DNA from: Bifidobacterium sp.
GTDB taxonomy: Bacteria > Actinomycetota > Actinomycetes > Actinomycetales > Bifidobacteriaceae
Assembly: GCA_024104275.1 (NCBI GenBank)
Contig: JAGGHK010000010.1
Coordinates: forward strand, 1 to 64,000
Reading direction: 5' to 3'
Length of the DNA stretch: 64,000 nucleotides
Below the pieces are notes generated by a model that saw only the letters and a program-made list of their open reading frames with translations, searched no databases and was not told where the DNA came from. Shown here piece by piece: positions 2,719 to 14,896 of the stretch. Within the stretch, counting starts at the first letter, position 1. The number at the start of each line of letters is the position of its first letter. The translations under genes and the position numbers were made by a program.

Positions 2719-4365
2719 GTGAGCTTGATCCGGTCTCAACGAGGAGACAACCAGACGCGACCCCAGCAAACGCAGCTTGGCCAAAACAACGATACGCACG
2801 TAAAACCTCGTTTACGCCGTCATCCGCACCACCATTCCCGTCGCGACCCGATTACGCTCGGCAACGCCATCGGCTATGGCATCGGCGACATCTACGGCGG
2901 CGGTCAACTCACGCTCATCGGCACGTATCTGGTGCTGTTCTGGACGCGCTTCTGCGGCATGTCCATTTCCGTGGCGCAGTCTGTGGTCGGCCTGAGCGCG
3001 ATTATCAGCGGCGTTGCAGCCCTTTCGTTTGGTATCCTCGGCGATAATCTATATCGCTTCCCGATTGGTCGGCGTTTTGGACGCCGCCATCTGCTGTTGA
3101 TGGTCGTGCCTCCGCTTATTTTGGTGGGCATCCTCCTTTGGATTCCAGGCCTGCCGTTCGCGGTCTATTTTCTGGTCTATATCCTATGGGTTACCGTCGC
3201 CCAGCTTTTTGCCTCGGCCTACAACACGTTGCCCGGCGAAATGGCGTTGGGTTTCGACGACCGCACCAAGCTTTCGACGGTGCGTCTGCTGATTTCCGGG
3301 GCCGCCGGCACGCTGATCCTGCTGATCGGCGGAGGCACGCTTTCGGTGTTCGGCGAGCACAGGCCGCTGGGTTATATGATTTTCACCATCGCCATCACGG
3401 TTTGCTTCGCCCTTGCGGTTTTCATCTGTTGGAAAAGCACGTGGGAGATGTCGCCTGAGGAAGCGGGATTCGGACAGTATGCCAAGATCAACGGTTCTGC
3501 GGACCGAACGAACGCTGACAACCATCGCTCAATGCGCGCCGAGGCCAAGCTCTGGAGGCACCGCCTGGCCGTCATGTTCCACGAATATGCCAGCACGCTG
3601 CGCATCGCGATTTTCCGCCGTCACTTGGCGCTTTATCTGCTCATGCTCACCGCCGGCGACGTCTTCAGCCAGACCTTCGTCTTCTTCGTCATCTACGACT
3701 GGAACAAAACCGCCGCGTTCGCCTCGCTGCTGTTGAGCTGTGGAATCATCACCGTGCCGTTGAACCCGCTGTTCGGGGCGGCCATGATCAAAATCGGTCC
3801 CAAACGCATGTATCAGGGCAGTTTCGCCGCGAGTATCGTCGGTCTGCTCTGGCTCTTCGCCGCATGGCGCTTGGTCGGCGTGATGCCTGAACCATGGTGG
3901 ACGGTATTCGCGGTGGCGGGTGCGCTGTTCTTCTTTATCGCCAAGGCGCCTTCCGGTTACCTGCCGTGGGCCGTTTTCCCGTTTATCGCCGACGTCGATC
4001 AGGTCGTTTCCGGCAAATACCGCGCGTCGACGTTCAGCGGCATCCAAGCCGGATTCCGCCAACTGGTTTCGGGATTTTCGGCGATAGCCGTGGGCGCCGT
4101 TCTGGGATTTGTCGGCTTCGATTCCTCGCGCCACGCGCAGACAGCGTTGGCGTGCAATGGCCTCGGAGCCTTGATGATTGGCTGGTATGCGCTTTCGATC
4201 GTGGTCTGCATCATCGTCGCGCGTCGTTTCAACCTCGACAAGCATACCGATGGCATCGCTTTGGCCGAGTCGGCCCGCGTCGCTTCCGGCGGTGACCCGC
4301 ACGACGTCGATCCGTCGGTTCGAGCCACGTTGGAGGACCTGACCGGTCAGCCGTACGGTCGGTGA
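2719..4365 (+). CDS. GPH-family (glycoside-pentoside-hexuronide:cation) sugar symporter
   Basis: The 548-residue membrane protein has the hallmarks of the GPH/MelB-like branch of the major facilitator superfamily. After a polar His/Arg-rich N-tail of about 45 residues comes NAIGYGIGDIYGGG, then VGLSAIISGVAALSFGILGDN with the conserved Asp. The loop-2 region YRFPIGRRFGRRHLLLM and AYNTLPGEMALGFDDRTKLS follow; the last is the conserved cytoplasmic loop of this family. The C-terminal 30 residues are hydrophilic. The start is the GTG at 2719, with AGGAG at 2711-2715, closer than usual, so the true start could lie slightly downstream. No glycosidase is adjacent, so the sugar is unknown. Confidence 0.82.
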   Translation: MSLIRSQRGDNQTRPQQTQLGQNNDTHVKPRLRRHPHHHSRRDPITLGNAIGYGIGDIYGGGQLTLIGTYLVLFWTRFCGMSISVAQSVVGLSAIISGVAALSFGILGDNLYRFPIGRRFGRRHLLLMVVPPLILVGILLWIPGLPFAVYFLVYILWVTVAQLFASAYNTLPGEMALGFDDRTKLSTVRLLISGAAGTLILLIGGGTLSVFGEHRPLGYMIFTIAITVCFALAVFICWKSTWEMSPEEAGFGQYAKINGSADRTNADNHRSMRAEAKLWRHRLAVMFHEYASTLRIAIFRRHLALYLLMLTAGDVFSQTFVFFVIYDWNKTAAFASLLLSCGIITVPLNPLFGAAMIKIGPKRMYQGSFAASIVGLLWLFAAWRLVGVMPEPWWTVFAVAGALFFFIAKAPSGYLPWAVFPFIADVDQVVSGKYRASTFSGIQAGFRQLVSGFSAIAVGAVLGFVGFDSSRHAQTALACNGLGALMIGWYALSIVVCIIVARRFNLDKHTDGIALAESARVASGGDPHDVDPSVRATLEDLTGQPYGR

Positions 4366-4369
4366 AAAC

Positions 4370-4404
4370 AAAAAATCCGCGGAACCTTGCGATTCTGCGG
4401 ATTT
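4370..4404 (-). terminator. Terminator of tRNA-Lys
   Basis: On the minus strand, AAATCCGC and GCGGATTT pair across a 16-base loop and run into TTTTTTG directly after the tRNA. On the plus strand it may also weakly terminate the transporter gene. Confidence 0.7.
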
Positions 4405-4410
4405 CATCTG

Positions 4411-4484
4411 TGCCCCCACGGGGATTCGAACCCCGGACACGCTGATTAAGAGTCAGCTGCTCTAACCAGCTGAGCTATAGGGGC
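4411..4484 (-). tRNA. tRNA-Lys (anticodon CTT)
   Basis: The minus strand folds as a full cloverleaf. The acceptor is GCCCCTA/TGGGGGC with one G-T pair, the D arm is GCTC...GAGC, and the anticodon arm is GCTGA-CTCTTAA-TCAGC. The T arm is CGGGG-TTCGAAT-CCCCG, with discriminator A at 4411. The anticodon CTT reads the lysine codon AAG. No CCA is encoded, so it must be added after transcription. It stands alone, with its own terminator. Confidence 0.95.
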
Positions 4485-5146
4485 GCTGGTCTAAAACTAC
4501 AAGAGCCAAGAGAACAGTATACTTGCGCGGTGGAATTTGCGCAAGGCGGTGTGTCGTCATGAGTTACGCCCCGATATCTTACAGGAATGAGGGTCGAACC
4601 GTTCTTATGCCGGCTTGCGTGGAGGAAAAATCGACGCGTTAGCCATCGTTCTTTCATGGTTGTATTCATCGTATTCCATCTATATGGCAATCGTACTTTC
4701 CTGAGCAAATCGCTATTATTATCTATAAGAACGTATGCCGCATTTTGCGCAATTTTATCATTTTTGGATAATTTCATGATGGCGGAATCGGAGAGTCGCT
4801 CCCCGCCGTGTTCCTGCTTTCTTCGTGATCCAAGGGGCTCGCTGTTGGAGATTCAAATTTTCTTGGATGGTTGTATTGGCGTAATGTAGCTGTTTTTGGG
4901 TCAAAAATCAAACAATCATTGAGTTAAAAAAGTGATTTTCGTAACAAATTCTATGGAAAAAAAGAAATAATTAAAATCGGAATGTCTCAAGGTTTCAGCG
5001 AGTTACACTTCTTCTTATCGAATATGGATAAGTTCAACGTTTCGAACGTATCTTTTTCGAGACATGACTAAGAACGATAGATGTTCTGTGCCTGAGCCAC
5101 ATGGCTGTGTGAGGGCGCCGTTCGTCGTACTCGAGAAGGAAGAATA
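4485..5146. other. Gene-free AT-rich intergenic region
   Basis: The 660 bases between the tRNA and the aquaporin gene carry short open frames on both strands. None has a ribosome-binding site, family resemblance or codon use like its neighbours. The 5' half probably holds the tRNA promoter. The 3' half (4880-5010) is strongly AT-rich and probably holds the glpF promoter, which I could not place with confidence. Confidence 0.5.
5014..5032. promoter_or_regulatory. Possible operator: CTTATC/GATAAG palindrome
   Basis: CTTATC and GATAAG flank seven bases, about 115 bases before the aquaporin start. It is an isolated 6+6 palindrome in an AT-rich region and could be a regulator site. Nothing ties it to a known factor. 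Confidence 0.25.
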
Positions 5147-5878
5147 ATGGAATTCTCTCTTACCGCAAAACTGGCGGCCGAATTTATCGGCACCGCGTTT
5201 CTGATGATATTCGGAAACGGAGCGGTGGCCAACACCGAACTCAAGGGCACGAAAGGCCACGGCACCGGCTGGCTCAACATAGCGATGGGCTACGGTTTCG
5301 GCGTCATGTTCCCGGTCATGATGATCGGCTCGGTCTCCGGCGCGCATATCAATCCGGCCATGACCATCGGCCAGGCCGTCAACGGCCTTTTCCCGTGGTC
5401 CGAGGTTCTTCCCTATATCGTCGCGCAGCTTCTGGGCGCGGCCGTCGGTCAACTCGTCATCTACTTCACCTATCTTCCGTATTACAAAATGGAAACCAAC
5501 CCTGACGCCATCTTCGCGACGTTCAGCACCACTGAAGCCAGCAACAACAAAGTCGTCTACTTCGCCAACGAGCTTCTGGGCACCCTCGTCCTTGTCCTTG
5601 CCGCTCTGTGCATGCTCTCCCTGCCCTGGGGCAAGAAGGACCCGGCCGCCGCGTCCATCGTCGTCGGCCTGATCGTCTGGGGCCTGGTGACCTCCATGGG
5701 CGGCTCCACCGGCCCCGGCCTCAACCCGGCCCGCGACCTGGTGCCGCGCTTCCTGCACTGGATCCTCCCGATTCCCCACAAGGGCAGTTCCCGCTGGGGT
5801 GAGGCCTGGATTCCGGTCGTGGCCCCGATTGTCGGCGCCATCATCGGCGCGTGGATTTTCAAGGTCTGCTTCGGCTGA
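5147..5878 (+). CDS. glpF: Glycerol uptake facilitator (MIP/aquaporin family)
   Basis: The 243-residue product is a major intrinsic protein. It has both half-helix NPA boxes, HINPAMT near residue 67 and GLNPARDLVPR near residue 187. The Asp after the second NPA (NPARD) is the usual mark of glycerol facilitators, as opposed to strict water channels. Six membrane segments fit the length. It would let glycerol and small polyols diffuse across the cell membrane. The ATG follows GAAGGAAG with normal spacing. No glycerol kinase is next to it. It is transcribed alone and closed by a strong hairpin. Confidence 0.92.
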   Translation: MEFSLTAKLAAEFIGTAFLMIFGNGAVANTELKGTKGHGTGWLNIAMGYGFGVMFPVMMIGSVSGAHINPAMTIGQAVNGLFPWSEVLPYIVAQLLGAAVGQLVIYFTYLPYYKMETNPDAIFATFSTTEASNNKVVYFANELLGTLVLVLAALCMLSLPWGKKDPAAASIVVGLIVWGLVTSMGGSTGPGLNPARDLVPRFLHWILPIPHKGSSRWGEAWIPVVAPIVGAIIGAWIFKVCFG

Positions 5879-5922
5879 TCTGAAAGGTTTTAGGCAAAAC
5901 CTGTCTTCCGTTACCCAACAAC

Positions 5923-5966
5923 AGTGGCGCGCTCTGCGATTTCGCAGGTCGTGCCGCTTTTTTATT
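5923..5966 (+). terminator. Rho-independent terminator after glpF
   Basis: An inner perfect stem CTGCG/CGCAG extends into AGTGGCGCG pairing with CGTGCCGCT (two G-T pairs), followed by TTTTTTATTTT. It lies 45 bases after the stop. Confidence 0.85.
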
Positions 5967-6090
5967 TTGCGAGTTATATTTTGTAAGAATTATCGAGAAA
6001 AACGAAAATCGCTGATACAAGATTTCTCTTCGTCATGAAGAATACCTATTATTGTCCCCATAACCATTGGAACCTGAGCGGGGAGACGAC

Positions 6091-7428
6091 GTGACACGTG
6101 AGCGACCGACGGACGCGGGATCCCCACGCCGCAAGGGGCCGGAAGACAAGCTGACAGCATCTTCGTCGAATCGAAACAGCCAGAAAAATAAGTCGCGCAT
6201 GACTTCAACGGCCGGGAAAGGTCCCAATGGTGGTCAGGCATCCGTGATTGCCAGAAAAGTCTCCAAGGGAATTCAGGCCTGTGCGCGTTGGCTTGGCAGG
6301 GTCCTGCTTGCCGCGATTCGCGGATTCAACCACGCCGTGCGACGCGGTTTCCGTGCCGTCCGTGATTTTCTGGGATTGCGCAGGTCAAAGAACGCGGGCA
6401 GATCAGTTGATTCAAGGAGCTCAAGTGGTTCGGCTCGCTCGGCTGGCAAAAACGCTTCGTCCGGGCGGCGGAAGGCACGGCAAGGCGTTCGCAATCCTGG
6501 CGTCGAGCGTGAATTCGGCATTTCCGAGATATCGCAAGGTTTCATCGGTTCGGTGCTTGGGCCCGAAACCGATGAAAGCTCCGTGCAAAAGACTTCCGTA
6601 AGAAAATCGACCGGAACCAACTCGCGTCCGGTGGCAAAATCTGTCTATCGGGTGCGTCGCATCGCCGTTTTGGTCATGGCTTTGGTGGTGGTTATCGCCA
6701 TCATTTTTGGCTGCAGGGCAGCGATTTCGGCCATCAGCCATCGTCATGATTCCGCTGCTTATCAAGATTCGTCTCAGGTCTCCCAGCAACACGGCTCCCA
6801 GAAGCCTGACGGCAAGAGCAAGCCTCCCAAGCCGAACCAGGCCGAAATGAAGCTGCAAGAGCCGCTGAGCGACCAGACCCGTGCCGCGATGCTGGCCAAG
6901 GCGCAGGCGACGGTGGCCGCGAGCGGCAAGCCGGCGCACCAGTATTCGTATTGCGTCAGCACCAAGGGCGATGTGGGCGGCTCGAAAACGCAACAGGAAT
7001 TCGAAAACAGCATTTTCCGCACCCTGAACGATCCGCGCGGATGGCCGCGTGCCGGCGCGACCTTTACGTATAGCAGCGATTCCAGCAGTTGCGATTTCGT
7101 CATCTATCTTTCGCAGCCAACGCTCATGACATCGTTCTCGGGCGATTGTTCCGACGAATACAGCTGCCGCGTAGGCGACAACGTCATCATCAACGAGGAC
7201 CGCTGGAACGGCGCCACCCCGCAGATGCTCAAGGCCGGGATGTCGCTGAGCCGTTACCGCATCATGGTCATCAACCACGAGGTCGGCCATCGCCTCGGCC
7301 ATATCGACAACGATCCCTCCTGCCCTGCGCCCAAGGCCCCGGCGCCACTGATGCAGGAGCAGTCGATGAGCCTTCGCGGCTGCAAGCCCAACGAGTGGCC
7401 GACGGATTCCGAGCTCTGGATTCAATGA
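6091..7428 (+). CDS. Membrane-anchored DUF3152 zinc-metallopeptidase-like protein
   Basis: The 445-residue protein has three parts. The cytoplasmic N-terminal ~195 residues are basic and low-complexity, rich in Arg, Lys and Ser. One membrane helix ([17 protein letters not shown]) follows, and then an extracellular C-terminal domain of about 200 residues typical of actinobacterial DUF3152. That domain contains [12 protein letters not shown], an HExGHxxGH metzincin-like zinc site, and several cysteines ([30 protein letters not shown]) suited to disulfides outside the cell. I chose the GTG at 6091 because GGGGAG lies 5 bases upstream; a TTG at 6067 is possible. The stop overlaps gluQ by four bases, so the two are co-transcribed. 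The substrate is unknown. Confidence 0.8.
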
Positions 7429-8510
7429 GCGGGCGGGTCGGCCGTTTTGCGCCCACGCCTTCCGGCCGTATGCACATCGGCAACGTCTATGCGATGCTGG
7501 CTACGTGGCTTTCGGCACATGCCGGGGATGGTTCGGGCAAGATTTTGCTGCGCGTCGAGGATGTCGATGAACCGCGGGCGCTCAAGGATGCCGACAAATG
7601 GATCATGGACGATCTGCATTGGCTCGGGCTGGATTGGGACGGCGAGCCGGTTTATCAGTCGAAGCGTACGGAAATCTACGAGGAAGCGTTGCGCTCGCTG
7701 GAATCGGTGAGGCTGGATGATTTTGCACTGGTGTATCCGTGTTTCTGCTCGCGTGCCGATTTGCGCGCGGCATCGGCCCCGCAGGAGGGTGACCGGTTCC
7801 TGATCTATCCCGGGACGTGCCGAAAATTACTGACCGAACATCCCGACGAAGTGCGCTCGCGGCTTGAGGCTGGCCAGCGCCATTCGTGGCGTATAGCAGT
7901 GCCGGAGCGGGACATGCAGGGGAGCGTCGTCACCTTTGACGACCGCATATTCGGCCACCAGCGTTTCGATTTGCCTCGCGAAGTCGGCGACACGGTGATT
8001 CGTCGTTCCGACGGCATTTTCTCCTACCAGCTGGCGGTAGTGGTCGATGACCTGCTGATGGGTGTCAACGATATCGTGCGTGGCCGCGACTTGCTACGGT
8101 CCACGGCCTTGCAGATTTGGATTCGGCGTGCGTTGGTGGTGTCCGGTTTTGCCAAGAAATATGGAATCCAACGGGTTGATAGTCCTGCCTATGCCCACCT
8201 GCCTTTAATCGACGACCCGACCGGCGTGCGTCTGGCCAAACGCAAGCGTTCGCTGGATATTGGCACGTTGCGGGCGGACGGGGTCAAGCCCGGGCAGATT
8301 ATCGGGTATTGCGCGTGGCTGCTTGGCGTCCGTTCATCCAAATCTCAAGGTGTCCACATGCCGGACGCTTCCGGTCCGGTGGCCATGAGTGCGCGGGAGG
8401 CCTTGGAATGCTTCACTTGGCGAGACGTTCGCGCAGACAAATCCGACCATATTCTTGAGGCTAATTGGGCAAGCGAATTTGACAGGCGCAAAAGCGGCAG
8501 TGTAGCCTAA
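7425..8510 (+). CDS. gluQ: Glutamyl-Q tRNA(Asp) synthetase
   Basis: The 361-residue product resembles the catalytic half of glutamyl-tRNA synthetase without an anticodon-binding domain, as in GluQ (YadB). GluQ attaches glutamate to queuosine at position 34 of tRNA-Asp. It opens with [14 protein letters not shown], holding the HIGH signature as HIGN. It contains cysteine pairs in CFCSR and GTC that fit the zinc site. The KMSKS counterpart is [10 protein letters not shown]. The ATG overlaps the stop of the preceding gene (ATGA), which indicates translational coupling. An actinobacterial discriminating role cannot be excluded without phylogeny, but the size favours GluQ. Confidence 0.82.
8479..8508 (+). 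promoter_or_regulatory. Candidate promoter of the trp T-box leader
   Basis: TTGACA at 8479-8484 is followed after 18 bases by TAGCCT (8503-8508), inside the last codons of gluQ. It would start RNA near 8515, just ahead of the T-box. The -35 box is ideal and the -10 box only partial. Confidence 0.45.
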
Positions 8511-8540
8511 GCAACAATAATTAAAAACACTACAAACCGA

Positions 8541-8812
8541 TAAAGCGGGGAAGTAGACGGAAACGCGCGATGAGCGAGCCCGGGATGGTGAGAGCCGGGA
8601 CGAGATGCGAACCGTTGAGTGGGCCGCTGAGGGCGCACCGATTGGCTGGATTCCAAGAGTTCGACTATGAGGCTGCGATGTAAGGCATACGTCAGTTGCC
8701 AAAGACGTGTTGGCGTCTGATAAGGGCACGGGAAACCGTGAACCAAGGTGGCACCGCGGGCTATAATTTTGCTCGTCCTTGGCTGTAATTGACAGCTGGG
8801 ACGGGCTTTTTT
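8541..8812 (+). promoter_or_regulatory. T-box riboswitch (Trp type) controlling the trp operon
   Basis: The leader has the parts of a T-box that senses uncharged tRNA. The stem I apical region is GGATGGTGAGAGCC (8583-8596). A specifier loop offers TGG (Trp) at 8620-8622. The T-box core AAGGTGGCACCGCGG is at 8745-8759. CCAAGG (8743-8748) can pair with CCTTGG (8777-8782) to form the antiterminator. The competing terminator is GCTCGTCC...GGACGGGC (8771-8806), ending in six T residues. Uncharged tRNA-Trp would stabilise the antiterminator and allow read-through into trpE. Transcriptional control is inferred from the terminator. The TGG specifier is the weakest element, but it fits the downstream genes. 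Confidence 0.88.
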
Positions 8813-8849
8813 AGTCCCAAAACGAGGCGAAGGCCTCCGGGAGGTGCCC

Positions 8850-10440
8850 ATGGTGACCACGAGTGTGGATGTTACAGCGGGCTCGGGCGGCAATGCGGCC
8901 GTTCACGGCGTTGCGGACAGGAACCACAGGTACGAGGGTATTCGGCCCACGCTTGATGAGGTTCGCGAGCTGGCGAAATCCGGCAAATACCGCCGTATTC
9001 CGGTGATGCGCGAACTGCTCGCCGACCGTCTGACCACCATCGAGACCATGCGCCGGGTGCGTGCCGCTTCCAACCATTGCTTCCTATTGGAAAGCGCCGA
9101 GGCCGACCAGCGCATGGGGCGTTATAGCTTCCTTGGATTCGCGCCGACGCTGGAACTGACCTGCAAAGCCGGGGATTTGAGAATCAAGCGCGTCGCTCCT
9201 GCTGGGTCGTCGGCTGAAGATGTGGTCGTTGAACACAAACACGTCGATCATCCGAGCGATGCCATCCGCAAGGTACTCGCGCAATATTCCAGCCCGCGGC
9301 TCGAAGGGTTCCCGCCATTCGCCGGCGGCCTGGTCGGTTATTTCTCCTTCGGTTATTTCGCTTACGCCGAGCCGACGTTGCGGCAGGAAACCCGCGACCC
9401 GAAAGCGCTGCCCGATGTCGATTTTGATGCTCTTCGATCAGCTCATTTCCTTCGATTCCTACCGTCAACGGCTTCAGCTTATCGCAGGCGTCGATACCAA
9501 CGATGTGGACGCCTCCTACGAGCGTGCGGTGAACCAAATCGAGGAAATGCAAGCGATTCTCGAGAACGGCAAACGCTACGACTTCAGGCCGCTGCAGCTG
9601 GATGGACCTCTGCGACTGACGCTCAACCGCGAACAATACGGTTCGATGATCAGGAAAGCCAAGGAGCTCATCTAAGCCGGCGACATCTTCCAGGTCGTGC
9701 TCTCCAACCCCAGCGTCGCGTCGGCTTCCGGCAGCCTGTTCGATGCTTACCGGTTGATGCGGGCCGAAAACCCAAGTCCCTACATGGTCTTCATGTCCAG
9801 CGACGACATCGAAATCGCCGCAGCCTCGCCCGAGACGCTGGTGCGGCTCGAAGACGGCAAGCTGTTGACCTACCCGCTCGCCGGAACCCGTCCTCGCGGC
9901 GCGACGCCGGAGGAAGACAAGCTCATCGAGCAGGATCTGCTCAGCGACGAGAAGGAACTGGCCGAGCACAACATGCTGGTCGACCTCGGGCGCAACGACA
10001 TCGGTCGCGTTTCCAAGCTCGGCAGCGTCGAAGTCGAGCGGCTGCACGATATCCTGCGCTTCTCGCATGTCATGCATATCGGTTCCACGGTCGCCGGGCA
10101 GCTTGCCAGCGGCAAGGACGCGCTCGATGTCATCGACGCGGTGCTGCCGGCCGGCACGCTTTCCGGGGCTCCGAAAATCCGCGCCTGCCAGATCATCGCG
10201 GAACTCGAGGATTCCCCGCGCGACATCTACGGCGGGGCCATCGGTTATCTCGACTTCTCCGGCAACCTCGACACCTGTATCGGCATCCGCCTGGCCTTCA
10301 AGCACAACGGCAAGGTCTGTGTGCAGTCCGGCGCGGGCATCGTCGCCGATTCCAACCCCGACAAGGAATTCGAGGAGTGCCGCAACAAGGCGCTCGCCGT
10401 CGTGGACGCCATCAACCAAGCGAACGGAGGCCTCGCATGA
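8850..10440 (+). pseudogene. trpE: Anthranilate synthase component I, broken by insertion and stop
   Basis: Two reading frames together encode almost all of TrpE, the chorismate-using subunit of anthranilate synthase. The first frame runs from the ATG at 8850 (GGGAGG at 8839-8844) and contains the feedback-site motif LLES. At 9423-9426 one extra base (GATTTTGATG where GAT-TTY-ATG is expected) shifts the frame, and the protein continues in the next frame as MLFDQLISFDS. That second frame is interrupted by TAA at 9673-9675, between KAKELI and AGDIFQVVLS. The catalytic C-half then follows intact: GTRPRG, ELAEHNMLVDLGRNDIGR, SGAPKIRA, GAIGYLDFSG. Two independent lesions argue against one sequencing error. 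The end overlaps trpG by four bases. Confidence 0.9.
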
Positions 10441-11024
10441 TCACCATCGTCGACAACTACGACAGCTTCTCCTACAACCTCTACCAGCTCATCGGTTCCA
10501 TCGAATCGGATGTGCGCGTGGTGCGCAACGACGACCTCGACGTGGCCGACCTGGCCGCGCTAGGCTCCGATGGCATCGTGCTTTCGCCGGGGCCTGGTAA
10601 GCCTGCGGACGCCGGAATCTGTGAGGACGTAGTACGTCGGCTTTCCGGAACGGTGCCGATTCTGGGTGTCTGCCTTGGTCATCAGGCCATCTGCGAGGCG
10701 CTGGGCGGCAAGGTCGTTCCCGCCGCCGAACTGATGCACGGCAAGGCCTCGCCGGTCGAACTCGACAATGATTGCCCGCTTTTCGCCGGGATGCCTGCGC
10801 GGATTCAAGCGGCTCGTTACCATTCGCTGGAAGCTGACAAGGCGACGTTGCCTTCTACGTTGCGCGTCGTCGCCCGTACCGCCGATTCCGACGAAATCAT
10901 GGCCGTGGCTCACGTCACCGATCCGACGTTTGGCGTCCAATTCCATCCCGAAAGTATCCTGACGCCGCTTGGCAAGGATATTCTTAAGAATTTTCTCGGT
11001 GTTGTCGAAAGGTTCGGCAATTGA
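10437..11024 (+). CDS. trpG: Anthranilate synthase component II (glutamine amidotransferase)
   Basis: The 195-residue class I glutamine amidotransferase is complete. It starts with MITIVDNYDSFSYNLYQLIG. It contains SPGPGKP (oxyanion region), the nucleophile motif GVCLGHQAI with the catalytic Cys, and the partner His and Glu in FGVQFHPES. It normally releases ammonia from glutamine for TrpE and often also serves PabB in folate synthesis. The ATG overlaps the trpE stop. Since trpE is broken, its retention could reflect a folate role, but no pabB is in the window. Start and stop are unambiguous. Confidence 0.93.
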   Translation: MITIVDNYDSFSYNLYQLIGSIESDVRVVRNDDLDVADLAALGSDGIVLSPGPGKPADAGICEDVVRRLSGTVPILGVCLGHQAICEALGGKVVPAAELMHGKASPVELDNDCPLFAGMPARIQAARYHSLEADKATLPSTLRVVARTADSDEIMAVAHVTDPTFGVQFHPESILTPLGKDILKNFLGVVERFGN

Positions 11025-11097
11025 GCGGATTCTTATCGATTTTAGTAATTAGTAATGCAAATGATATCTATCAATCACATACAAGGAAGTAATAACC

Positions 11098-11383
11098 ATG
11101 ATCAGTGAAGCAATCGTCAAAATCGTCAACAAGCATGACCTCACCTACGACGAAGCCTACCATGCCATGAAGGAGATCATGGGCGGGGAATCGACGCCGA
11201 CCCAGAACCGAAGCCGCGCTGTTCAACGCCGCTTGCGCGCTCTACGTTTCGGGCGTCGCCTCGTCGATTGGCGAAGGTGTTGAGATTGCTCGTGAGCAGA
11301 TTGCTTCCGGTGCCGCGATGAAGACGCTCGACGAGTTCGTCGCCGGTTCGCAGGCGTTCGCTAAGGCCGACGCCGAAAAGTAA
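11098..11383 (+). pseudogene. trpD: Anthranilate phosphoribosyltransferase, internal deletion
   Basis: Only the two ends of trpD remain. From the ATG at 11098 (AAGGAAG upstream), 36 codons give the normal N-terminus, ending in MGGESTPTQ. The sequence then jumps, in another frame, to 58 codons (11210-11383) starting [15 protein letters not shown] and ending in TAA, which is a normal TrpD C-terminus. A complete protein has about 340-350 residues, so roughly 250 codons are missing. These include the phosphoribosyl pyrophosphate site (GTGGD) and the anthranilate site. The direct product, in the first frame, would stop after 61 residues. It cannot be functional. Confidence 0.9.
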
Positions 11384-11412
11384 GGACTAAAAGTTCGTCG
11401 GGCAACTGTCAG

Positions 11413-11519
11413 TGAACGTTTTCTAGCATTTTGGTGGGTTGGTGCAGAAAACCGGTCATTTAGAGCTCAGCAGTGACTATTTTCTAGCCCAATTCATTTC
11501 GGATGCTAGAAAGTGTTCA
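11413..11519. repeat. Imperfect inverted and direct repeats between trpD and trpC-B
   Basis: The 17-base arms 11413-11429 and 11503-11519 (TGAACGTTTTCTAGCAT against its complement) match at 15 positions. A third copy, CAGTGACTATTTTCTAGCC (11471-11489), repeats the left arm directly. The rest of 11384-11614 holds no gene. Confidence 0.6.
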
Positions 11520-11614
11520 TTTGCGGTTATTCGGTGACTGGTTTCCAATGAGCTTACGACATTGTTTCGTGATTTTATGGCTGTTGATATTAATGATAAG
11601 AAAGTGCAAAGGTA

Positions 11615-12799
11615 ATGGCTGATTCCGAAAATATCCTGCAGCGCATCGCCGCGAAAACCCGCGAGCGCGTGGTCGAGGAGAAGGCGCAAACCCCGCAGAG
11701 CCTAGTTGAGGCTCAGGCTCGTGAGGTCAACTCGCGGAAAGTTGCGGCGGGGGAGAGCGGCGATGCCGCGTTCCCGTTCGAGCACGCTCTGAAGGCGCCT
11801 GGGATGAGCTTCATCTGCGAGCTCAAGCAGGCCTCGCCGAGCAAGGGCATCATCGCGCAGGACTACCCCTACCTCGACATCGCGCGCGACTACGAAAAGG
11901 CGGGCGCGGCGGCCATCAGCTGCCTCACTGAGCCGACGCGGTTCAAAGGCTCCGACGAGCATCTGCGCCAGGTCGCGGCGCTATTCGGCATGGAATGCGT
12001 GGTCTACATGGGCCAGGTGGATATGGAACGCCAGGCGCTCAACGTCTACCGCATGCGTCTCTTGGGCGCGGAAGTGCGCGGCGTGACCAGCGGCACTGGC
12101 ACCTTGAAAGACGCGGTTTCCGAGACCTTTCGCGAATGGACGCGGCGCATCTCCGACACCCATTACTGCCTCGGCTCGTGTATGGGGCCGCACCCCTTCC
12201 CGACGATGGTGCGCGATTTCCAGTCCGTGATTTCCAAGGAGGCTCGCGAGCAGATTCTTGAAGACGAAGGCAAGCTTCCCGCGGCCGTGATCGCGTGCGT
12301 CGGCGGCGGTTCCAACGCCATCGGCAGCTTCTACAACTTCATCGGCGACAAGGATGTAAGGCTCATCGGCTGTGAGGTGGCCGGGCGCGGCATTGACACG
12401 CGTGAGACGGCGGCGACCATGAACACCGGTTCGCTCGGCATCTTCCACGGTATGAAAAGCTATTTCTGCCAGAACGAATACGGCCAGATCGCGCCGGTCT
12501 ATACGATTTCCGCGGGCCTTGACTACCCGGGCGTCGGCCCCGAGCACGCGGCGCTGAAGGATTCCGGACGCGCCCAATATGTCGCCATCACCGACGGCGA
12601 GGTCGTCGATGCTTTCGAATACCTGAGCCGCACCGAGGGCATCATTCCGGCCATCGAAAGCGCGCACGCCGTGGCCTACGCCATGAAACTCGCGCCGACG
12701 CTTTCGCGTGACCAAAGTATCATCGTCACCCTTTCCGGGCGTGGCGACAAGGATGTGGCGTCCATCGCCCGTTACCGTGGGGAGGATCTTCATGACTGA
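11615..12799 (+). pseudogene. trpCB: TrpC-TrpB in-frame chimera left by an internal deletion
   Basis: The frame of 394 codons is open, but its two parts are truncated. Residues 1 to ~121 are the N-terminal half of indole-3-glycerol phosphate synthase, with [10 protein letters not shown] and ending ...GSDEHLRQV. Residues ~122-394 are the C-terminal two thirds of tryptophan synthase beta, from [12 protein letters not shown] through [10 protein letters not shown] (the PLP phosphate loop) to the normal end. The join lies near 11975. The TrpC catalytic C-half is missing. So is the TrpB N-domain with its HKTNN motif and PLP-binding lysine. As I recall, bifidobacteria normally carry a full TrpC-TrpB fusion of about 690 residues, from which this would derive by an in-frame loss of some 300 codons. 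It may be translated but cannot catalyse either reaction. Confidence 0.85.
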
Positions 12800-12899
12800 G
12801 ACAACCAAGGCCAACGGTGCGAATGGCGCAGCCGATGTGAAGGATATGGTCAACGGAAACAGTCGGAGTGGCGAAAACGTTGTGAAAGGATGCAACTGA
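12792..12899 (+). CDS. Mini-ORF overlapping trpCB, shares trpA's first codons
   Basis: A 35-codon frame begins with an ATG inside the last codons of the trpCB chimera and ends one base before the trpA ATG. Its first 14 bases (ATGACTGAGACAAC) are identical to the start of trpA at 12901-12914, 109 bases away and in another frame. The rest is Asn/Gly-rich without family resemblance. It may be a duplicated start that keeps ribosomes coupled between trpB and trpA, or simple sequence drift. A real protein product is doubtful. Confidence 0.3.
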
Positions 12900-12900
12900 T

Positions 12901-13731
12901 ATGACTGAGACAACACAGCAGGGCGCTCGCCGTTCCCGCATCCTGAAAGCGTTCACTGCCCCAGATGGCAGTCGCCGCAAGGCTTTCATCCCGTTCGTCA
13001 CCGTTGGTGACCCGTCAATCGCGCTGACCGAAAAGCTGGTACCGGCCATGATCGACGCCGGTGCCGACCTGATCGAGCTGGGCGTCCCCTTCTCCGACCA
13101 GACCGCTGAAGGCCCGGTCATCCAGGAAGCCAGCAACCGCGCGCGTTCCGCTGGTACCACCACCGATGACGCCTTCGCGCTGGTCGAGCGTTTGCGCCGC
13201 GACCACAAAATCGAGACGCCGATGGTCTTCATGACCTACGCCAACGTGCTCTATTCTTACGGCCTCGAGCGTTTTGCGCATCGTGCCGCCGAAGTCGGGC
13301 TCGACGGCGTGATTCTGCCGGACGTGCCGCACGAGGAGAAGCCGGAGTTCGACGAGCCGCTGGTGGCTGTTGGGCTTGACTTGGTCAGCCTCATCGCCCC
13401 GACCTCGCACGAGCGCATCCACAGCATCGCTTCGGACGCCAAGGGCTTCATCTATTGCGTAAGTTCGCTCGGCGTGACTGGCGTTCGCAAGGAAATCACC
13501 AGCGACGTGAAGGGCATGATTCGTGAGGTTCGCGCCGTCACCGACGTACCGGCCGCCATCGGTTTCGGCATCTCCACCCCAGAGCAGGCCGCCACCATGG
13601 CCGCCGATTCGGACGGTGCCATCGTCGGCTCGGCCATCGTGCGCATGGTCGGCAAATACGGCGAGGACGCGGTGCCATACGTCACTGACTATGTCCGTTC
13701 GCTGGCTGAAGCCGTTCACGGGTTGAACTGA
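12901..13731 (+). CDS. trpA: Tryptophan synthase alpha chain
   Basis: The 276-residue TrpA is full length. It splits indole-3-glycerol phosphate into indole and glyceraldehyde 3-phosphate, and normally passes indole to TrpB. The catalytic Glu and Asp lie in LIELGVPFSDQTAEGP (the acidic pair E and D is present; the usual ADGP is AEGP). The phosphate-binding GFGIS and GAIVGSAIV are intact. The ATG follows GAAAGGATG-rich sequence after the mini-ORF. With TrpB's active site gone, TrpA would have no proper partner. Its intactness suggests the decay upstream is recent, or that it is kept for another use. Confidence 0.93.
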   Translation: MTETTQQGARRSRILKAFTAPDGSRRKAFIPFVTVGDPSIALTEKLVPAMIDAGADLIELGVPFSDQTAEGPVIQEASNRARSAGTTTDDAFALVERLRRDHKIETPMVFMTYANVLYSYGLERFAHRAAEVGLDGVILPDVPHEEKPEFDEPLVAVGLDLVSLIAPTSHERIHSIASDAKGFIYCVSSLGVTGVRKEITSDVKGMIREVRAVTDVPAAIGFGISTPEQAATMAADSDGAIVGSAIVRMVGKYGEDAVPYVTDYVRSLAEAVHGLN

Positions 13732-13797: not shown

Positions 13798-13975
13798 AAA
13801 AGTGCATTTTAGCGACCGCCATCTTGCATGCTTTCCATGTAACTATGGAAATGTGCAAGTTACGGCCGCTATTTTGCACGTTTTTCATATTACTGCCAGA
13901 AAAGTGCGTTTTTAGAGATTGTATTTTGCATGTTTTCCATGTCAATGGTACAAAAGTGCGATTTAGCGCGAGTCG
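13798..13975. repeat. About three tandem ~51-bp imperfect repeats
   Basis: Units start near 13798, 13850 and 13900, with a partial fourth near 13952. They share AAAAGTGC at the start, TTTTGCAYG in the middle and TTTCCATGT or similar at the end. Each unit contains short self-complementary parts (GTGCA / TGCAC). The second unit has the core TTACGGCCGCTATTT. There is no spacer diversity of CRISPR type. The rest of 13732-14029 contains no gene except the yggS leader. Confidence 0.65.
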
Positions 13976-14029: not shown

Positions 14030-14896
14030 ATGATGACTGCTTATATGGATCACAAGGATCTCGCCAACGAGGTCATCGACGAGGCACGCACGAAGGAAAT
14101 CGCGGACGGCGTGCATCGGGTGCTGGACGACATCGCCAAAGCTGAGGCAGCTTCGGGCCGTGAATCTGGGTCGGTGAAACTGCTCGCGGCCACCAAAACC
14201 CGCGATGTCGGCGAAATCATGGCCGCCATCGACGCCGGCGTGCGCCTGATCGGCGAGAACCGGCCGCAGGAAATCTCCGCCAAGGCCGAGGGCCTGATTC
14301 GCCAATGCGCGCAGCGTGGCTTCTCGCTGGGTGCCGCCGCGAATACCCAGAATGTCAATGGTTCCAATGGTTCCAATGGTTCTGCAGCTTCTCAAGCGGC
14401 TCCGAACGGCCACATTCCGTTCCACCTTATCGGCCAGCTGCAATCCAACAAAATCGGCAAGGTGCTGCCCTATGTCGACACCATCGAATCGGTCGGTTCG
14501 CTTGAGGAAGCGCAGAAAATCGCGCGTCGCGCCATCGCACGCCACATCGTCGTCGGTGTGCTGATGGAAGTCAACGAATCCGGCGAGGCTTCCAAATCCG
14601 GATGCGAACCTGACGAGGCGGTCGACCTCGCCTATCAGATCGGTGCCATGGAAGGCTTGCAATTGCAGGGTTTGATGACCATCGGCGCCCATGTCGATGA
14701 CGAAAAGACGATACGCAACGGGTTCGCGCATCTTCGTGGCACCCGCGATACGATTTTGAAGTCAGGTGAGCCCGGAACGGCGCAATGCCGCGAACTTTCG
14801 ATGGGCATGACCCACGATATGGACTACGCCGTGGCCGAAGGCTCGACCATCGTGCGCGTCGGCACCGCGATTTTCGGCGAGCGCGCGTTCATCTGA
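14030..14896 (+). CDS. YggS-family pyridoxal phosphate homeostasis protein
   Basis: The 288-residue product is a single-domain, alanine-racemase-N-type PLP protein (YggS/PLPBP/YlmE). It binds PLP and keeps free PLP and amino-acid pools in balance. The PLP lysine sits in LLAATKTRD, and GENRPQEI and FHLIGQLQSNK are the family's signature stretches. SMGMTHDMDYAV and GTAIFGER close it. Between these lies an unusual low-complexity insert (SNGSNGSAASQAAPNG, residues ~107-124) coded by tandem AATGGTTCC repeats. There are two possible starts, the adjacent ATGs at 14030 and 14033, with GCGGGG upstream. In other bacteria this gene often sits by cell-division genes; here it is next to acylphosphatase. 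Confidence 0.9.
   Translation: MMTAYMDHKDLANEVIDEARTKEIADGVHRVLDDIAKAEAASGRESGSVKLLAATKTRDVGEIMAAIDAGVRLIGENRPQEISAKAEGLIRQCAQRGFSLGAAANTQNVNGSNGSNGSAASQAAPNGHIPFHLIGQLQSNKIGKVLPYVDTIESVGSLEEAQKIARRAIARHIVVGVLMEVNESGEASKSGCEPDEAVDLAYQIGAMEGLQLQGLMTIGAHVDDEKTIRNGFAHLRGTRDTILKSGEPGTAQCRELSMGMTHDMDYAVAEGSTIVRVGTAIFGERAFI

Follow-up and report, generated by a model that had tools for sequence, protein, structure and literature searches.

What is left of the tryptophan (trp) biosynthesis operon in a bifidobacterium in which several of its genes look damaged, and where did this operon come from? The question is raised by a stretch of 64,000 nucleotides (nt) from Bifidobacterium sp. (assembly GCA_024104275.1, contig JAGGHK010000010.1, positions 1 to 64,000), which is called the window here. 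It contains a Trp T-box leader followed by trpE, trpG, trpD, a trpC-trpB chimera, and trpA, all on the forward (+) strand. The genome is a draft of 2,164,548 bases in 19 contigs with an estimated completeness of 94.85%. We compared it with a genus set of 112 genomes and, within this set, with the 12 other genomes that carry a T-box trp operon (the sister set). The nearest named relative by TrpA (95%) is Bifidobacterium sp. ESL0784 (L003), which has the same gene order in the form of seven separate whole genes: trpE, trpG, trpD, trpC, trpF, trpB, and trpA. We regard it as very likely that the window holds the remains of an imported, once complete T-box-regulated trpEGDCFBA operon, which the lineage is now losing. 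This is directly supported by the lesions themselves, by the absence of other copies from the assembly, by the foreign kinship of the operon, and by the relaxed constraint on the broken genes.

Lesions in the trp genes

We aligned the trp genes of the window with those of the 12 sister operons. The trpE pseudogene (8844..10440) carries two small lesions. A run of four T at 9422-9425 is one base longer than in each of the sisters, and a TAA codon at 9673-9675 interrupts the frame where 11 of the 12 have TAC or TAT and the twelfth has CAT (histidine). A preliminary description of the locus had reported both lesions; they are borne out by the alignment, with the insertion moved by one base from the 9423-9426 given there. 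The same description had called trpG (10437..11024) intact, and indeed the gene is whole, with its full length of 195 codons and the catalytic motif GVCLGHQ. By contrast, trpD is reduced to a remnant of its two ends (11098..11383), as had been recognized. The remaining 37 N-terminal and 59 C-terminal residues (instead of the 36 and 58 counted before) are out of frame with each other and meet at a junction at about 11208/11209, the net loss relative to L003 being 761 nt. An imperfect inverted repeat of 26 nt (77% complementary) is found at 11404-11528, in the spacer between the remnants of trpD and trpC.

The next open reading frame (ORF; 11615..12799) encodes an in-frame TrpC'-'TrpB chimera of 394 amino acids. 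Comparison with the sister operons revealed that residues 1-122 of TrpC are joined in frame to approximately residues 128-399 of TrpB. A single deletion of about 1807 nt relative to L003 starts in trpC and ends in trpB, and the whole of trpF is gone. The earlier view that trpC-trpB had lost its central part was thus right about the deletion, but the lost stretch spans three separate genes, trpC, trpF, and trpB. The junction lies within the 9-nt direct repeat GTCGCGGCG (11972-11980), which points to a deletion by slippage or short-repeat recombination. In L002 (the trp locus of strain ESL0763), both sides read GTCGCGGCG as in the window, while in L003 one side reads GTTGCGGCG.

Could the chimera be a working fusion, so that part of the pathway survives? 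Its frame is open over all 394 codons, trpB belongs to an open frame some 700 codons long or longer (fused trpCB) in 80 of the 112 genus genomes, and trpC precedes trpB in the same frame in the four such genomes examined. But of TrpC nothing beyond residue 122 is left in the chimera, and its TrpB part is without the lysine that binds pyridoxal phosphate (residue 90 of L003 TrpB). Moreover, its trpB part carries 10 private amino-acid changes, compared to 0-6 in seven sisters. We consider a functional fusion barely conceivable.

The last gene, trpA (12901..13731), had been described as looking intact. This holds for its open frame but not for its conserved positions. Proline 67, beside the aspartate of the FSD motif that is presumably catalytic, is replaced by glutamine (P67Q), whereas all 94 other rows of the alignment have proline. 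Leucine 82 is replaced by arginine (L82R), with leucine in 91 of these 94 rows and arginine in none. TrpA has probably been inactivated through these missense changes. None of the lesions of the window occurs in any of the 12 other genus genomes with the operon. Comparison with the same locus in related bifidobacteria, which the preliminary description had proposed, therefore leaves them private to this genome.

Other copies of the broken genes

A search for second copies of trpE, trpD, trpC, and trpB elsewhere in the genome had also been suggested. In the draft assembly, we found no second trpE, no second trpD (family PF00591), no second trpC (PF00218), and no second trpB, for which a single further match reached 18.7 bits. 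A trpF (PF00697) was not found in the assembly either. Nor was a second chorismate-binding protein (PF00425): the trpE of the window, with one TAA inside, is the only such match in the genome. With the lesions confirmed and no other trpB, trpD, trpE-type, trpC, or trpF in the assembly, the loss of tryptophan synthesis that had been proposed is well supported. Since five of the seven trp genes are broken or gone, the cell very likely needs tryptophan from its surroundings and would thus be auxotrophic, or at least cannot make tryptophan from chorismate.

Constraint on the remaining genes

In eight of the 13 operon genomes, which are closely related, we counted the amino-acid and silent substitutions that occur in a single genome only, leaving out codons with gaps or with fewer than four sisters. 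The remnants of trpE, trpD, trpC, and trpB have 27 amino-acid to 32 silent changes, compared to 125:399 in the seven sisters (Fisher p 5e-4). For the flanking genes gluQ and yggS (named by eye), the numbers are 15:13 versus 135:151 (p 0.56). Constraint is therefore relaxed in the broken genes, but not in the flanking genes. Based on a neutral ratio of 2.4-3.1, the point estimates for the unconstrained part of the terminal branch are 0.19-0.25, with intervals spanning 0.06-0.52. Hence, the loss was probably recent and would fall roughly into the last fifth of this branch.

The T-box leader

The Trp T-box leader (8531..8783) was identified as a match to RF00230 (68.2 bits, E 7.3e-15 in a 401-nt scan) and by alignment with the 12 sister leaders. 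It scores below the Rfam gathering score of 93, which is a curator's threshold and not a structural feature. None of the 13 trp leaders in the genus reaches it (64-78 bits), nor do three T-boxes located before trp operons of Bacillota (48-82 bits). The specifier UGG is found at 8620-8622 and is present in 13 of 13 operon leaders. The T-box bulge UGGC (8749-8752) is complementary to the 3' end GCCA of the tRNA-Trp (anticodon CCA) of the same genome. In the antiterminator, 8743-8748 pair with 8777-8782 and 8756-8761 with 8771-8776, and this fold has an energy of -20.3 kcal/mol (9 of 200 shuffles were equally stable). The intrinsic terminator with a U6 run (8771..8812) has a stem at 8771-8806 that is identical in all 13 leaders (z -5.4; 0 of 200 shuffles equally stable). 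Both structures use 8771-8782, with 8780 unpaired in the terminator, and are therefore mutually exclusive.

The leader, its terminator, and its antiterminator had been described as looking functional. Specifier, bulge, and terminator are indeed kept, but one base of the putative kink-turn is not. At 8542, the window has A in place of a G that all 12 sister operons share. The Rfam alignment puts this position into the 5' loop, an unpaired region at the foot of Stem I, and in our reading it would correspond to G1b, with which the tandem G.A pairs of the kink-turn in Stem I begin. Of the other two private changes in the leader, one is a C>T that keeps its pair (C-G in the 12 sisters, U-G in the window) and the other lies within the antiterminator loop. 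According to passages of PMC5061560, removal of the amino group from either guanine abolishes ion-induced folding of the kink-turn, while A.A at the other pair is tolerated inside a riboswitch. For a T-box without kink-turn, a greatly weakened second binding step is described in a section of PMC6197855. An excerpt of PMC7583486 states that the kink-turn is likely required where Stem II is present, but also that it may be stabilised by proteins and has been proposed to be absent from one T-box. It is therefore plausible that the G>A change impairs antitermination and weakens T-box switching in the window.

In its UGG specifier, UGGC bulge, antiterminator/terminator pair, and site before trpE, the leader resembles the transcriptional Trp T-boxes of Bacillota (RF00230). 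It differs from them by its host Bifidobacterium, by the wrecked genes 3' of it, and by the one changed base of the putative kink-turn. The ileS T-boxes of Actinobacteria belong to the same RNA family, and the genome has one of its own before an ileS-like gene (L153). Such ileS T-boxes are described, in passages of PMC1262725, as acting on translation initiation, whereas the trp leader of the window has a terminator. The second T-box of the genome (C11:673071-673281) was also considered as a possible regulator of a tryptophan transporter, which was ruled out because it precedes the ileS-like gene (IleS by eye).

Alternative explanations for the damaged operon

A number of observations weigh against an operon that is being lost. 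One genome represents the species. Its 19 contigs and a completeness of 94.85% leave room for copies in gaps. Single-contig relatives, however, reach only comparable values (G083 96, G085 94, and G088 95; 94-99 for the eight single-contig T-box relatives), so that 94.85% looks normal for this group. With respect to tryptophan import, for which a search of the genome had been suggested, TrpP, the only transporter searched for, had no match in the genome. The ratio of amino-acid to silent changes in trpG and trpA is not significantly raised (6:15 versus 29:102, p 0.58). The leader of the window has no excess of private changes compared to the sister leaders, with 3 such changes at otherwise invariant columns versus 0-3 in 11 sisters and 14 in Bifidobacterium commune. 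In addition, the Stem I of Rfam, to which the changed kink-turn base (A in the window, G in 12 of 12 sisters) belongs, was reproduced neither by the minimum-energy fold of Stem I alone nor by the RNAalifold consensus of the 13 leaders. This part of the leader therefore rests on the match to the covariance model. Finally, the one-base insertion and the stop codon in trpE could be sequencing errors, which is hardly the case for the deletions of 0.8 and 1.8 kb.

The last point leads to the question whether the operon might be whole in the organism and its damage an artefact of assembly or sequencing. The draft state of the genome with its 19 contigs would allow for this, and G085 likewise has a single trpE frameshift. 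But the window contains four separate lesions of three types within one contig, 8.5-13.7 kb from the contig end, and the junction of the larger deletion lies in a 9-nt direct repeat, as is frequent in real deletions. Moreover, assembly cannot explain the private excess of amino-acid changes in the broken genes or the two missense changes in TrpA. An artefact is therefore very unlikely.

Somewhat less remote, though still improbable, is a selective retention of the leader, trpG, and trpA, which might still serve something, for example trpG as the amidotransferase in folate synthesis or the T-box for regulating trpG. The full-length trpG with its catalytic motif, the lack of significant relaxation in trpG and trpA, the unchanged terminator stem, and the leader without excess of private changes would all agree with it. 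But no second chorismate-binding protein, and hence no PabB partner, was found in the assembly, for which reason we rejected a role of trpG in folate synthesis. Furthermore, B. commune lacks part of trpG itself, a proline found in 94 of 94 rows and a leucine found in 91 of 94 are missing from TrpA of the window, and its leader no longer has a putative kink-turn base that 12 of 12 sisters retain. If the decay is confined to roughly the last fifth of the branch, trpG may simply not have been hit so far.

Origin of the operon

The second part of our question concerns the source of the operon. In the genus, a T-box precedes trpE in 13 of the 112 genomes. A 14th genome (G012) has a T-box beside a scrap of trpE at a different chromosomal place, after rpsO-pnp (named by eye). 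Of the 25 other T-box matches listed in the genus, 18 were examined, and each of them lies before an ileS-like gene (by eye). Strong trpF matches (147-160 bits) are found in 12 of the 112 genomes, of which 11 belong to the 13 T-box genomes and the twelfth is G045; nine further genomes have weaker ones (45-57 bits). G045 (L117 3480-9927) carries a complete trpEGDCFBA operon of a generally similar type, with no T-box match.

In a tree of TrpA (n=95), the 13 proteins cluster as a single clade (100/100) that is placed among Bacillota and is only distantly related to the four native TrpA of bifidobacteria. We then considered a second tree, based on TrpD, TrpC, and TrpB. It contains 63 of 75 loci (the other 12 were without long enough matches to the three genes) and was computed by a quick method, with support from the Shimodaira-Hasegawa-like approximate likelihood ratio test (SH-aLRT) only and no bootstrap. 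Seven bifidobacterial operons group there with the Coriobacteriaceae metagenome-assembled genome L059 and then with L007, another one of this family (SH-aLRT 95 each), and this whole group sits inside the Bacillota radiation. TrpA alone leaves L059 and L007 in an unresolved set with many Bacillota. Lachnospiraceae, which had been considered as direct donor from a first TrpA list, were discarded, since the TrpD+C+B tree puts the two Coriobacteriaceae genomes nearest.

A T-box core lies within 600 nt upstream of trpE in 40 of 47 trpE-bearing relatives. These 47 were drawn from the 67 of 77 non-bifidobacterial loci (L004-L080) that exceed 8 kb, and such core sites on the same strand total only 57 in the 1.12 Mb that these 67 loci comprise. 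In L007 a T-box core precedes trpE; in L059 one precedes trpD, with no trpE or trpG found in the latter stretch. In L059 (6132-10777), the core stands directly before trpD-C-F-B-A, and a second core site is found at 14331. An Rfam scan of seven relatives at the gathering score gave no T-box. A cmscan by E-value found a T-box before trpE in three of three relatives, two of which were taken from those seven, indicating that the gathering score is too strict here.

The conflict between the phylogeny of the operon and that of its host, together with an arrangement shared with the donor group, argues for a horizontal acquisition. Based on the distribution of the T-box, the trees, and the T-box cores upstream of trpE in the relatives, the simplest account is that leader and genes were imported together, with gut Coriobacteriia or Bacillota as candidate donors.

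Divergence of PriA and a probable second transfer

An import of a trp operon by an actinobacterium has a precedent. As cited in an excerpt of PMC5404923 (Noda-Garcia 2013), Corynebacterium acquired its trp operon by horizontal gene transfer, with PriA becoming SubHisA. There, too, a whole trp operon was received. The operon of the window differs in its donor, in its damage in several members, and in having a T-box instead of the classical attenuators that passages of PMC1262725 predict for the Corynebacterium trp operon.

As in Corynebacterium, the resident PriA has diverged. PriA is open in the genome of the window (G000:C11:915941-916657, L168). We compared the protein in 23 of 26 genomes searched; the remaining 3 had none. 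Twelve PriA, all from T-box genomes, cluster together as a clade (100/99, stem 0.25). At 22 columns, none of them has a residue that also occurs in any of nine native PriA; among these differences are D12G, G128S, R/K170H, and S/T175D. Several of these columns are near what we take for active-site loops. This pattern fits an imported trpF that freed PriA, but plain divergence along the stem would look alike.

The remaining T-box genome, G093 (L002, ESL0763), does not follow this pattern. Its PriA has the native residue at 19 of the 22 columns, and its HisF is 0.82-0.83 identical to that of four clade members, which are 0.94-0.98 identical among themselves. Its trp locus (L002 ~2900-11900), in contrast, has 88-91% DNA identity to that of G086, and its TrpA falls inside the T-box clade of the TrpA tree; trpF is missing. 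Since HisF and PriA place G093 outside the clade but trp locus and TrpA inside, the genome itself seems to lie outside the T-box clade, and its operon is probably the result of a second-hand transfer between bifidobacteria. Tentatively, and with more doubt than confidence, we propose that the T-box trp operon freed PriA from its TrpF duty. PriA of the clade would then have drifted towards a HisA-only function, which would make loss of the operon hard to reverse, and G093, as a second-hand recipient, could shed trpF.

Like the Actinomycetaceae, the organism of the window belongs to the host-associated actinobacteria. In the former, trp genes were lost and PriA became SubHisA2, with the changes Ile47Leu and Ser79Thr, according to passages of PMC5404923. 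Tryptophan synthesis was lost from an actinobacterium in both cases. In the window, however, the lost genes are the imported set and the loss is caught part-way. The SubHisA2 markers were not found: Ile47 and Ser79 (matched by eye to the numbering of PMC5404923) are unchanged in 23 of 23 PriA.

Stages of loss across the genus

By frame, 9 of the 13 operons are whole and four are damaged. Besides the window with five genes broken or gone, these are G085 with a single trpE frameshift, which could be an error, B. commune (G025) with a deletion in trpG, and G093 without trpF. In B. commune, an in-frame deletion has removed about 92 codons from within trpG (L001 5744-5980), among them those of the glutaminase cysteine motif; its six remaining trp genes have open frames. 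The most advanced stage is found in G012 (L135 8139-8907), where scraps of a T-box and of trpE are flanked by pnp and by tad-pilus-like genes (named by eye). Its specifier reads CGA, its U run is short, and the fold of its terminator region is no more stable than that of shuffled sequences (187 of 200 equally stable). Here, the leader is outliving its genes. Overall, 10 of the 112 genus genomes have no trpB match and 14 have no trpE, indicating that loss of tryptophan synthesis is not rare in the genus as defined by this set, in which a few of the genomes concerned are incomplete (G056 74%, G079 78%, G078 88%).

We found no paper on ESL0784, on tryptophan biosynthesis in B. commune, or on horizontal transfer of a T-box trp operon in Actinobacteria. 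The sole match for tryptophan biosynthesis or auxotrophy in bee-gut Bifidobacterium concerns Frischella, and among the matches listed for tryptophan auxotrophy in Bifidobacterium or the bee, none deals with the locus of the window by title and start of the abstract. Two further observations were made next to the operon. Upstream, a glutamyl-Q-tRNA-synthetase-like ORF (7089-8510; named by eye) opens far 5' of its likely start at about 7430. Downstream of trpA and before the gene that follows it, a 20-nt unit occurs three times at a spacing of 50-52 nt (13821-13964).

Probable import and erosion of the trp operon

From these results, the following course of events can be proposed. An ancestor of a small bifidobacterial group would have taken over the operon with its T-box horizontally from gut Coriobacteriia or Bacillota. 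As long as the operon was intact, uncharged tRNA-Trp (CCA, 3' GCCA) would have bound the leader by the UGG specifier and the UGGC bulge, favouring the antiterminator and thereby transcription into trpE. In the lineage of the window, small mutations and two deletions have then destroyed trpE, trpD, trpC, trpF, and trpB, while TrpA has probably lost its function by missense changes and the leader has taken on its putative kink-turn mutation. Among the genes, trpG is the only one that still looks whole.

Operon decay and tryptophan auxotrophy are common, and the mechanism, import followed by erosion, is ordinary. What is unusual is the setting, an imported T-box trp operon in bifidobacteria whose decay can be followed through several stages in a single genus. 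Of the 13 operons, 9 are whole by frame, 3 have one gene that is broken or missing, and that of the window is largely destroyed; in G012 the operon is nearly erased. These stages let one ask which gene goes first and if the regulatory RNA outlives the genes, with specifier and terminator being whole in the window but damaged in G012. They also make it testable whether an acquired trpF re-shapes the dual-function enzyme, as reported for Corynebacterium.

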